Positions 16,122-19,356 of a stretch of DNA of 64,000 nt are shown here, in pieces. Where the stretch lies: positions 186,001-250,000 of the forward strand of contig JAMDCP010000002.1 of NCBI GenBank assembly GCA_023489335.1, in the 5' to 3' direction. The position numbers were made by a program, and so were the translations under genes. The first letter of the stretch is position 1. Each line of letters starts with the position of its first letter. Under the pieces are notes generated by a model that did no database searches, had not been told where the DNA came from, and saw only the letters and a program-made list of their open reading frames with translations. Source of the stretch: Deltaproteobacteria bacterium. GTDB taxonomy: Bacteria > SZUA-79 > Acidulodesulfobacterales > Acidulodesulfobacteraceae.

Positions 16122-17405
16122 TTAAGGGTTTGTTTCGGGGGTTTTACTTAAGTTTGCGTCAATTGTTTGCGAAGCGGCGTTTTTAGCCTTTCTGCTGTAT
16201 ATAAAAACCCCAACCGTAAGCAATATATTCGTGGTTATAATTACCAGAAAGGCGTATTCCGGAAATGCGGATGTTCCGGGGATACCCTCGTTTAAAGGCA
16301 TATAGGCCATAATAGCGGTTGCCAAAGCCCTTCCAATCATCGAGAGCATAAAAAACCGTTCTTCTTTGGGGGCAGCCGCGGCATCTTTTATCTTTTTATT
16401 ATTCTCCGATTTAAAAGCTATCCGCACCGCAATATAGCGGGATAGAATAATCAGGATAATTATTATAAAAAATCTGTCAAAAAACTCCCAATCTAAATTT
16501 GCCAACTCTACCACAACGCCCAAAAATACAAAAAATACCGTCCTTATAAGAAATGAAAACTCATGGTTAAACTGTTTTATAACCGAATTTTTTATGCTCA
16601 TATTAAAAAAATTAATTTTAAACCTGTTTAACAAGTCTTCATTGCCCATTATTATTCCAAAGACAAGTATGGCAATAGCGCCGTTTCCGTGAACATAATG
16701 CATAATTAAAACAAGAACAAGCATGGCGGCAAATGTAACCCCGTAGGCAAATTTTGTTTTTACGAGAGCCTTAAGCGCCATATACCAGACAATCCCTAAT
16801 ACAGCGGCTATAAGCCCTGATATGGCAAAAGAATATGCGGTTTGAAGGGCTATTTTGCCGTAGTTCATGTTTATGGAGGCATGTTTTGCAATACTTATAA
16901 GTATAATCAGGAGTATTATTGCAAACGCATCGTTAAATGTGGATTCGATAGCAATTACGGTTTTGCTTTTTTCGCTTGCGTTAATATTGGGCAAAAGCGG
17001 TATTATAACGGTCGAACTGGAACAGGAGACGATAGTTCCAAGCATAAGCGATTGAATGAAGCCCGCGCCGCCCATTATATAAAAAATAACGCCGACGAAG
17101 ACCGTGGAAAGAAACAAGCCCGACAGGATTAAAATCATCGAAACGAAAGAAGATTTGAAAACGGTGAGGAAATTAAGTTCGAGCCCGCCCTGGAACATGA
17201 TTAAAACTAAAACCAATGTGCTTAGATAAGGGGCAAAGGATAAAAAGACATTTTGGTTAAAAATATGATAGATTGGACCGAGTAGCAAGCCCGCGGCCAT
17301 TAAAAATAATATAGAGGGAATTTTGGTATATTGAAACAGTATTTCTCCCAAAAAACCAAGGATTATTATTATGCCGAAAATTCCAATGGCAATGGATGGG
17401 AACAT
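16122..17405 (-). CDS. Cation:proton antiporter
   Basis: A hydrophobic protein of about 427 residues with 11-13 predicted spans, of the Na+/H+ (cation:proton) antiporter superfamily. The mid-protein ESTFNDAFAI resembles the ESxFND motif of NhaP/CPA1-type exchangers, which points to electroneutral exchange; the ion is unknown. The last 40 residues are a polar cytoplasmic tail. The start is set at 17405 (MFPSIAIG). A longer in-frame version begins at 17468, but its basic N-terminal extension looks unlike the family and overlaps a candidate promoter for the divergent gene; neither start has a clear ribosome-binding site. An acid-stress or ion-homeostasis role is inferred. Confidence 0.85.
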   Translation of the reverse strand: MFPSIAIGIFGIIIILGFLGEILFQYTKIPSILFLMAAGLLLGPIYHIFNQNVFLSFAPYLSTLVLVLIMFQGGLELNFLTVFKSSFVSMILILSGLFLSTVFVGVIFYIMGGAGFIQSLMLGTIVSCSSSTVIIPLLPNINASEKSKTVIAIESTFNDAFAIILLIILISIAKHASINMNYGKIALQTAYSFAISGLIAAVLGIVWYMALKALVKTKFAYGVTFAAMLVLVLIMHYVHGNGAIAILVFGIIMGNEDLLNRFKINFFNMSIKNSVIKQFNHEFSFLIRTVFFVFLGVVVELANLDWEFFDRFFIIIILIILSRYIAVRIAFKSENNKKIKDAAAAPKEERFFMLSMIGRALATAIMAYMPLNEGIPGTSAFPEYAFLVIITTNILLTVGVFIYSRKAKNAASQTIDANLSKTPETNP

Positions 17406-17442
17406 AAATATCTTTTTATTTTTATCTATTTTAAAATTTTTC

Positions 17443-17471
17443 TTGACATAGTTTTTATAAAATAGCATACT
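17443..17471 (+). promoter_or_regulatory. Candidate promoter for the Nramp-family gene and its leader
   Basis: TTGACA (17443-17448), then 17 bases, then CATACT (17466-17471). A start point near 17478 would give a leader of roughly 285 bases. The site overlaps the N-terminal extension of the longer antiporter reading frame, which supports the shorter start for that gene. Confidence 0.45.
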
Positions 17472-17558
17472 TTAAAATATAAGTGCAAATAAAAAAGTGA
17501 ATATTTTTATTGCAATATCTTTAATTCTGAAATAAATAAAACTTAAATGGAGTTATTT

Positions 17559-17699
17559 ATGCGAAGCGAACCCGACAGTAGCAGCTATTACATTTATTTA
17601 ACAAAAACCGAAAATAGCTTTAACTTTAACTCGTTATTAAAGAGTTCAATATTAAATAATATAAATAAATTCTCCGCTAATTTCCTCCGCCGAATATAA
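17559..17699 (+). CDS. Possible 46-residue leader ORF upstream of the Nramp-family gene
   Basis: A 46-codon frame (MRSEPDSSSYYIYL... ending FLRRI) begins six bases after ggag (17549-17552), inside the long 5' leader of the transporter gene. It is rich in Ser and Asn and matches no family I know. It ends 15 bases before a hairpin that covers the transporter's Shine-Dalgarno region. This could be a regulatory upstream ORF, a small protein or a chance frame; only the position and the ribosome-binding site support it. Confidence 0.35.
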   Translation: MRSEPDSSSYYIYLTKTENSFNFNSLLKSSILNNINKFSANFLRRI

Positions 17700-17714
17700 T
17701 CTTTTAATATTCTT

Positions 17715-17755
17715 CTCTTTCTAATAAATCGTTGAAGCTATTTATTAAGAAAGAG
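17715..17755 (+). promoter_or_regulatory. Shine-Dalgarno-masking hairpin before the Nramp-family gene
   Basis: ctctttctaataaat (17715-17729) pairs with atttattaagaaagag (17740-17755) over 15 bp with one bulged base and a 10-base loop. The right arm contains the only purine-rich stretch (aagaaagag) before the ATG at 17764, so folding would hide the ribosome-binding site. The arrangement resembles a translational attenuator or metal-responsive leader; the ligand or trigger is not evident. Confidence 0.5.
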
Positions 17756-17763
17756 ACGAAACA

Positions 17764-19113
17764 ATGGAAGATTATAAAAACAAACTCAACGAACTTCCGG
17801 TAGATATCAAACTCAGAGCCGTAGATAGACTTAAAATCCACCTTATGAGGCAGAAATACGGGTATTTTTCGCGCCTGTGCCTTTTGATGGCATTAATAGG
17901 TCCGGGTATACTCGTTATGCTTGCCGATAACGATGCCGGCGGCGTTATGACATATGCGCAAACCGGCTCGATATTCGGAATCGGTTTTTTTATACCTTTT
18001 ATGATAATAATGCTTCCTGTCGCTTATATAGTTCAGGAAATGACGGTAAGGCTCGGCGCCGTTACGCACAGGGGGCATGCCGAAATGATATGGAAAAGAT
18101 ACGGGAAATTCTGGGGCGCATTTTCTTTGATAGACCTTGTCATTGCAAATGTACTAACCTTAATAACCGAATTTATCGGAATAACGCTCGGAATGGAAGT
18201 TTTTGGGGTGTCTCCCGTATTTTCGTCGGTAACCGCGATTGTCGTCATATCTTCTATTCAGCTTTTTTTGCGCTATTTTTCGTGGGAGTGGATTAGCTTA
18301 AGCATTGCGGCGTTTAATCTGGTTTTTATTCCGTTAGTCTTTTTTGTCCCGCATCTTCACTGGGGGGCCGTTGCAAGAAGCTTTGTATCGTGGCATATAC
18401 CCGGGGGAATTAATTCGCTCTTTATATATGTCGTGCTGGCAAATGTGGGAACGACTATAGCGCCGTGGATGCTTTTTTTTCAACAGTCTTCGGTTGTAGA
18501 TAAAGGGCTTACCGTAAAAGATATAAGAGACGGACAGATTGATACCTTCCTGGGCTCCCTCTTTATGGTAATAGTCGCCATAGCGATTATTCTGGTTACG
18601 GCTGGAACTGTTTTCGGTTTTACCCATACGCCTAATTTAGACATACAGACTATACTTTCCGCCATATCGGCAAAAATGGGACCGCTGGCAATGAGGTTTT
18701 TTGCCCTTGGCCTTGTAGAAGCAGGACTTATCGCGGCCATTGCAATTTCGGCAAGCACCTCATGGGCTATGGGCGAAGCGTTCGGATGGCCGAAGAGCAT
18801 TAACATACCTCCATTGCAGGGCTGGAAGTTTTATCTGCCGGGAATTATAAGCCTTTTGATCGCCGGAGGCATAGTTCTGATTCCTAATGCCCCGCTCGGG
18901 TTTTTAAATTTAACCGTTCAGGTCGTCGCCACTATTTTTATGCCTGCGGCAATGATGTTTTTACTCCTTCTTCTTAACGATAAAGAGATAATGGGCGACC
19001 ATATAAACAAACCGTGGCAGAATATATCCGCATTCGCAATAGTCGGGTTTTTGATAATTATGAACGGGATATACGGAATAACGGTGGTGTTTCCGCATAT
19101 ATTCGGAAAATAA
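17764..19113 (+). CDS. Nramp (SLC11)-related divalent cation transporter with atypical metal site
   Basis: A 449-residue protein with about 11 spans and the Nramp frame: GPGILVMLADNDAGG at TM1 and VGTTIAPWMLFFQQSSVVDKG at TM6. The canonical TM1 DPGN is D57-A-G-G60 and the TM6 metal-ligand Met (MPH) is A233 followed by PW. In Nramp transporters the Asn and Met ligands select soft transition metals. Their loss is the hallmark of Nramp-related proteins (one characterised group transports Mg2+), so Mn2+/Fe2+ transport should not be assumed. It is preceded by a structured leader and followed 33 bases later by a small membrane protein gene. Confidence 0.88.
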   Translation: MEDYKNKLNELPVDIKLRAVDRLKIHLMRQKYGYFSRLCLLMALIGPGILVMLADNDAGGVMTYAQTGSIFGIGFFIPFMIIMLPVAYIVQEMTVRLGAVTHRGHAEMIWKRYGKFWGAFSLIDLVIANVLTLITEFIGITLGMEVFGVSPVFSSVTAIVVISSIQLFLRYFSWEWISLSIAAFNLVFIPLVFFVPHLHWGAVARSFVSWHIPGGINSLFIYVVLANVGTTIAPWMLFFQQSSVVDKGLTVKDIRDGQIDTFLGSLFMVIVAIAIILVTAGTVFGFTHTPNLDIQTILSAISAKMGPLAMRFFALGLVEAGLIAAIAISASTSWAMGEAFGWPKSINIPPLQGWKFYLPGIISLLIAGGIVLIPNAPLGFLNLTVQVVATIFMPAAMMFLLLLLNDKEIMGDHINKPWQNISAFAIVGFLIIMNGIYGITVVFPHIFGK

Positions 19114-19146: not shown

Positions 19147-19356
19147 ATGAAAATAGAAGATAAGATTTCAAGAAAAATAAATCTCGACGAAGATTGGGAA
19201 GATTTTATTAAAGAAGAAGGATTAGTGGACTATAATAAAATTCCGGTAGAAAGAGCTATCGTTAAAGGATGGGTACAGATTGCCTTCTGGTTTTTAAGAA
19301 TTTATATATTGATTATGGTTATAATGGTAATAATCGGTTTTTCGAGGATACATTAA
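19147..19356 (+). CDS. Small single-span membrane protein of unknown function
   Basis: A 69-residue protein with a charged N-terminal half (KIEDKISRKINLDEDWEDFIKEEG) and one hydrophobic helix near the C-terminus (IAFWFLRIYILIMVIMVIIGF). It has an acggaga ribosome-binding site, starts 33 bases after the Nramp-family gene and is likely co-transcribed with it, so an accessory role for that transporter is possible. I do not recognise a family. Its last four bases overlap the end of tadA on the other strand. Confidence 0.6.
   Translation: MKIEDKISRKINLDEDWEDFIKEEGLVDYNKIPVERAIVKGWVQIAFWFLRIYILIMVIMVIIGFSRIH

Follow-up and report, generated by a model that had tools for sequence, protein, structure and literature searches.

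A structured leader precedes an Nramp-type gene

The window, the 64,000-nt stretch of bacterial DNA analysed here, carries on its forward strand an NRMT-type (Nramp-related Mg2+ transporter) gene (17764–19113; PF01566), the closest solved relative of which is EleNRMT (7qia). Its leader contains three elements, each found where the original prediction had placed it: a promoter, TTGACA-N17-CATACT (17443–17471, forward strand), with the −35 element at 17443–17448, the −10 element at 17466–17471 and a 17-nt spacer; a 46-codon upstream open reading frame (uORF; MRSEPDSSSYYIYLTKTENSFNFNSLLKSSILNNINKFSANFLRRI) at 17559–17699 of the same strand, running from an ATG at 17559 to a TAA at 17697–17699 and equipped with its own forward-strand Shine–Dalgarno (SD) sequence, GGAG, at 17549–17552; and a hairpin, its long core starting 15 nt past the uORF stop, that pairs the transporter SD (AAAGAGA, 17750–17756). 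A second ATG is in frame at 17547; the SD and the conservation, however, favour 17559 as the start. The full leader is more stably folded than its shuffles (z = −2.45, matched by 3 of 100). On the opposite strand, the listed start of an antiporter ORF (16122–17468) falls within the promoter of NRMT; translation more probably begins deeper in the frame, which would make the promoters of the two genes divergent.

The prediction also recognized no known riboswitch class, and none emerged: when Rfam covariance models were run on the window, no family exceeded its gathering score and the ten weak matches included no metal riboswitch. We therefore rejected M-box and yybP-ykoY as candidates; weak miRNA matches are generic hairpins.

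The source genome, that of an uncultivated acid-mine bacterium, belongs to a small phylum, represented in this analysis by 30 genomes from one family and six genera. The same leader occurs in Candidatus Acididesulfobacter diazotrophicus AP1 and the isolate SZUA-79, which we take to be members of the acid-mine Acidulodesulfobacterales. We located uORF starts by pattern in 21 of the 30 genomes and, because such a search favours synonymous variants, also read the upstream regions of 24 NRMT orthologs directly, where the motif was missing in 5 of the 7 genomes of genus g2. The pattern gave 22 leaders upstream of NRMT (two of them in G029, on two contigs) and one extra leader. The whole module precedes NRMT in 19 genomes and the uORF only in 2, while 5 have NRMT without the module and 4 have no NRMT ortholog. 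The 17-nt promoter spacing is identical in all 20 module-bearing NRMT leaders; in two further leaders, L032 and L033, inspection by eye shows the variant TTGACA-N17-GATAAT. Both stem and ORF, whose absence from relatives had been named as grounds for abandoning the prediction, show conservation across the phylum.

The uORF encodes a conserved acidic N terminus

The uORF start is conserved in 22/22 NRMT leaders, as are G/A-rich columns 7–11 nt before its ATG. The peptide begins M[RQ]SEPD[SG]S in every one of these leaders and is variable afterwards. Codons 3–8, S-E-P-D-S-S (17565–17582, forward strand), which we propose to be a ribosome-destabilizing (or stalling) acidic motif, are invariant except for S7G in 2 of 22. 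Including the extra leader, L054, which stands before another gene, E4 and D6 are present in 23/23 and P5 in 22/23, L054 having S in place of P5. The first uORF codons carry closely spaced acidic residues, which, often together with Pro, mark acidic leader-peptide control.

The codon-level conservation that the prediction had proposed as a check is seen in this N terminus. Codon changes were counted by parsimony on an NRMT gene tree of the 19 leaders, out of 22, that have a full-length NRMT: in codons 2–8, third positions take 17 of the 20 changes (P = 2.8 × 10−6), and all 17 are individually synonymous; the proline codon occurs in all four CCN variants among the leaders. In codons 9–12, third positions account for 15 of 41 changes, matching the expectation without coding constraint. 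Further, the uORF of L047 is frameshifted after codon 16, indicating that the C-terminal peptide sequence is not under selection.

The uORF body and the transporter start compete for one RNA segment

Pairs of the masking hairpin span 17710–17760, 21 in total, with the long core beginning at 17714. Its right arm, segment 3 (17737–17760, forward strand; from folding and alignment), holds the NRMT SD, which is weak in the window (AAAGAG) and reads AAGGAG in most relatives. The hairpin is present in 21/21 folded leaders, 20 before NRMT and 1 before a different gene; G006 and G007 have strongly divergent hairpin sequences. For L051, the best whole-leader fold instead pairs much of the hairpin stretch with the uORF body. 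L032 and L033 were omitted from all folding. The alignment further leaves out L050 and L051, which could not be aligned, and L054, which precedes another gene; all three were kept in the folding tests. In the alignment, the hairpin is 91.2% paired, compared with 47–61% when slid, and 5 pairs are altered on both sides, a result matched by 33 of 500 shuffles; by itself, the hairpin gives modest covariation support. A regulon search with a hairpin model built from 19 of the 21 leaders, which misses the divergent G006 and G007 hairpins, returned NRMT leaders and their mirror matches, plus the single extra leader of G023, and nothing else.

In L016 and L025, an extra small hydrophobic ORF begins directly after the masking hairpin, before NRMT, so that a switch there would act on that ORF first; L015 and L017 have no clear ATG at this position.

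Segment 2 (17702–17738, forward strand), made up of the UUUUAAUAUU element and the hairpin's left arm and loop, can pair either with segment 3 or with segment 1, an anti-sequestor in the uORF body (17623–17657, forward strand). Several lines of evidence support this second helix. First, complementarity between the uORF body (nt 52–129 of the uORF) and the left arm plus loop is found in 21/21 leaders, with duplex z scores of −2.1 to −8.2 (300 shuffles per leader) and at most 3% of shuffles matching in any leader. Second, when partners were swapped among nine diverged lineages, hand-picked from the 21 and including L050, L051 and L054, own partners averaged −21.7 kcal/mol and foreign ones −13.5, with the own partner top of its row in 5 of 9 (P = 5.5 × 10−6 over 362,880 permutations). 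Third, in an 18-sequence alignment, 7 pairs of the 1:2 helix are altered on both sides and its covariation score is reached by 0 of 500 shuffles. The 1:2 helix is paired in 88.8% of cells; slid by −3 it is 45% paired, yet that register has 8 doubly changed pairs, in 20 cells. The helix contributed by the hairpin loop is paired in 99.2% of cells, and the conservation of the loop, GTTAAAGC, is explained by its pairing with GCTTTAA, a conserved stretch in segment 1.

These helices make the leader a two-state RNA, in which an anti-sequestor in the uORF competes with a sequestor on the transporter start site. The folds are mutually exclusive in silico, and the tie to translation rests on uORF position: across lengths of 22–52 codons, the uORF extends into segment 1 in 21/21 leaders, including those of just 22–29 codons, compared with 22–54% of shuffled frames. 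We hold with high confidence that the leader peptide and the RNA switch are real. The proposed class, a translational attenuator or ion-sensing leader, is supported by the conserved uORF and stem, the alternative helix within the uORF making them a switch; what the original prediction overlooked is the anti-sequestor, the EPD motif and the Mg2+-type NRMT branch of the transporter.

In transcripts ending at segment 2, 1:2 pairing is dominant in 18 of 21 leaders (mean pairing 0.60–0.82) and averages just 0.18, 0.41 and 0.47 in L045, L040 and L049. At full length, 20 of the 21 leaders settle at equilibrium in the masked state (P12 ≤ 0.12), the exception being L051 (P12 = 0.73), and blocking segment 1 alters this little. 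Since the masked state is preferred with segment 1 covered as well as uncovered, the switch must depend on co-transcriptional timing. Thermodynamics alone does not reveal ribosome dependence, and the kinetic reading is the weakest structural link.

The transporter belongs to the Mg2+-type NRMT branch

The best solved relative of the protein, the Mg2+ transporter EleNRMT (7qia), matches at E = 2.4 × 10−56, and the next best at 9 × 10−12; the metal-site stretches NDAGG and GTTIAPW are the same as in 7qia. The NRMT signature, as given in PMC8806188, comprises DxxG in helix 1, TxxA/T in helix 6 and Trp replacing His in helix 6b. Aligned with 7qia, the window protein has DxxG, TxxA and the Trp. The second Nramp gene of the same genome shares 35% identity; with DAGS and MPW in these places, it retains the transition-metal Met. 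Judged from its residues, the transporter is a probable Mg2+ importer.

In the 30 genomes of the phylum, we found no CorA (control, 14/14), no MgtE or MgtA over cut-off, with generic P-type ATPases matching in the MgtA search, and no M-box (RF00380). NRMT may therefore be the main Mg2+ importer, with unknown families possible. EttA (TIGR03719) likewise gave 0/30 over cut-off, with generic ABC matches only (control, 4/14), a suggestive absence. An EttA-type ABC-F factor rescues ribosomes on early acidic residues in E. coli (PMC11282234, PMC11552253).

A leader-peptide Mg2+ sensor is the favoured explanation

The best explanation of these observations, which we consider rather more probable than the other readings together, is a Mg2+ sensor that is built on the leader peptide and acts at the level of translation. 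Transcription would start near 17478, and a ribosome on the uORF would make the acidic nascent chain M-R-S-E-P-D within six codons. At low Mg2+, this chain would destabilize (or stall) the ribosome at codons 4–8, about 30–50 nt before segment 1; bare segment 1 would pair with segment 2 once the latter is transcribed, capturing the left arm, leaving the NRMT start free and yielding more importer. At sufficient Mg2+, the ribosome would traverse the uORF and strip segment 1, and segments 2 and 3 would pair, masking the SD and yielding less importer. The promoter, the N-terminal coding constraint, both alternative helices with their covariation and the NRMT identity are demonstrated in silico. We infer the low-Mg2+ trigger, drop-off over arrest, the ON/OFF polarity and the co-transcriptional kinetics; Mg2+-dependent drop-off is the likely signal. 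Experimental precedents are MgtL, on which ribosomes drop off at EPDP under low Mg2+ (PMC11282234, PMC11552253), and the Asp and Glu of mgtQ (PMC8092293).

The same switch might instead respond to a true arrest peptide or to another signal, such as Mn2+, Fe2+, pH, polyamines or translation stress, a possibility to which we give about half the weight of the Mg2+ sensor or somewhat less. A ribosome stalled at codons 4–8 would, by geometry, likewise leave segment 1 free, the habitat is acid mines, and A. capsulatum NrmT acted as a Mn2+ transporter (PMC4072509). Additionally, GAC6 and AGT7 have 0 and 1 third-position changes, compared with an NRMT average of 4.3, so that codon or RNA context may matter. 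Against this, N-terminal acidic residues one apart are a published signature of drop-off or pausing (PMC11282234, PMC11552253), the transporter site is Mg2+-type and no further Mg2+ importer family exceeds cut-off in the 30 genomes.

We consider it unlikely that the polarity is opposite, with uORF translation opening the masking hairpin by translational coupling and activating NRMT. This would suit the masked state as equilibrium default, a window stop codon merely 15 nt before the stem core and the mgtQ precedent, in which translation promotes mgtB (PMC8092293). However, the stop-to-hairpin distance varies, with stops roughly 55–90 nt away in L047, L050, L052 and L054, and we rejected coupling through an adjoining stop because this spacing is not conserved; moreover, the uORF always spans into segment 1, which co-evolves with the hairpin arm. 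That ATGCGAAGTGAACCCGACAGTAGC is the aptamer of a ligand-binding riboswitch rather than a coding stretch is very improbable: nucleotide identity is high and ORF-less remnants persist in four genomes, but no Rfam family passes threshold, the uORF SD is strong, and changes cluster at synonymous third positions with all four CCN codons in use.

Comparison with known leaders

In translational attenuators of the Erm type, a ribosome on the leader ORF chooses between two folds, one of which masks the start site; there the ribosome is stalled with a bound drug, whereas the present leader has an acidic nascent chain. The original paper on ribosome destabilization is reportedly Chadani 2017. The mgtL uORF has 17 codons; its motif is EPDP, whereas the present leader has one Pro only. 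The mgtL leader of mgtA in E. coli and Salmonella shares with the present one an early E-P-D, a position in the leader of a Mg2+ transporter gene and two exclusive RNA folds, and its full translation represses while low-Mg2+ drop-off induces (PMC11282234, PMC11552253), the occupancy logic that we propose here. Its output is Rho-dependent termination and its transporter a P-type ATPase, compared with SD masking, an NRMT and a uORF of 22–52 codons.

Asp2 and Glu5 are the ribosome-destabilizing residues of mgtQ, where refolding of the RNA exposes the mgtB ribosome-binding site (PMC8092293). Like the present leader, mgtQ combines an acidic uORF, there with AGGAGG, and alternative stem-loops with the release of a masked Mg2+-transporter ribosome-binding site, but it has 8 codons, is intergenic and uses four segments, compared with three segments here. 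Occupied segment 1 is ON in mgtQ, whereas bare segment 1 is proposed to be ON here; a uORF start mutant lowers expression in mgtQ (PMC8092293) and is predicted to be ON here. An M-box before NrmT in Clostridium is likewise a cis-acting RNA leader controlling an NRMT gene (PMC4072509), but there the RNA senses Mg2+ directly with a terminator as output, and the present leader has no M-box. By analogy, then, the leader would join mgtQ-like translational output and mgtL-like occupancy logic to a different transporter, and it matches neither system.

Literature searches of open-access PMC papers turned up mgtQ but no leader of this kind from other than enterobacteria or upstream of an NRMT gene, and the leader is apparently convergent with enterobacterial mgtL and mgtQ. 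We give roughly even weight to the full proposal, that acidic-chain ribosome destabilization was independently recruited outside enterobacteria as the Mg2+ sensor of this whole phylum, which appears to lack CorA, MgtE, MgtA and the M-box, through a three-segment co-transcriptional switch with the uORF body as anti-sequestor. If true, reading Mg2+ from how stable a ribosome is during translation would be a recurrent solution and not an enterobacterial oddity, and it would extend to the NRMT class, for which the M-box is the leader control known so far. A compact and testable design would also be at hand, a peptide motif plus three RNA segments, of which natural variants exist, and with it a way into the Mg2+ homeostasis of acid-mine bacteria that are known mostly through metagenomes.

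Distribution, loss and second use

In genus g2, the leader before NRMT has been lost in 5 of 7 genomes and is therefore dispensable there; four g2 genomes retain the remnants CGACAGTA or AGACAGTA without the ORF. In L032 and L033, 865–890 nt separate the uORF from NRMT. A gap of this size is also recorded for L023 and L024 (G011 and G009), where the uORF start is intact, the promoter is TTGACA-N17-GATAAT and the gap may be due to an inserted element.

The extra leader, L054 (G023:C44:42275–42488, reverse strand), is a second module of promoter, MRSESDSS uORF and switch, before a gene for a 429-aa protein; its motif is ESD rather than EPD, with both acidic residues retained. The protein, possibly exported and porin-like, matches no Pfam family over cut-off, and its gene adjoins a paralogous Nramp gene. 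Homologous genes following the paralog in G008, G010 and G016 have no leader, and the module thus seems to have been recruited to the G023 gene.

Beyond the phylum, the 700 nt next to each of 17 NRMT loci (687 and 333 nt at two of them) were examined for small ORFs carrying motifs of the [DE]P[DE] type; one of these loci, L103, has two nested GC-rich frames that look like chance. A pattern scan of the whole collection, for which simple arithmetic gives an expectation of about 7, returned 21 stretches, 19 of them within this clade. We set aside as chance the other two, in Chloroflexi and Hyphomonas, where the motif lies inside a longer frame with no clear SD.

Other features adjoin the transporter gene. 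After NRMT, the window encodes a 69-aa protein (19147–19356) with one hydrophobic stretch and no Pfam family; stretches similar to it adjoin NRMT in relatives (antisense reads). On a single tree with a midpoint root, the window NRMT clusters among those of genus g6 rather than those of its own genus (L001 compared with L015 and L016), although its upstream neighbour is shared with G002, making recombination at the locus possible. Finally, genus g6 (L007–L012 and others) has a parS-like palindrome, TGTTTCACGTGAAACA, upstream of the NRMT promoter, between the leader and a gene end that we take to be mnmG; in that place the window has the NHE-type antiporter.
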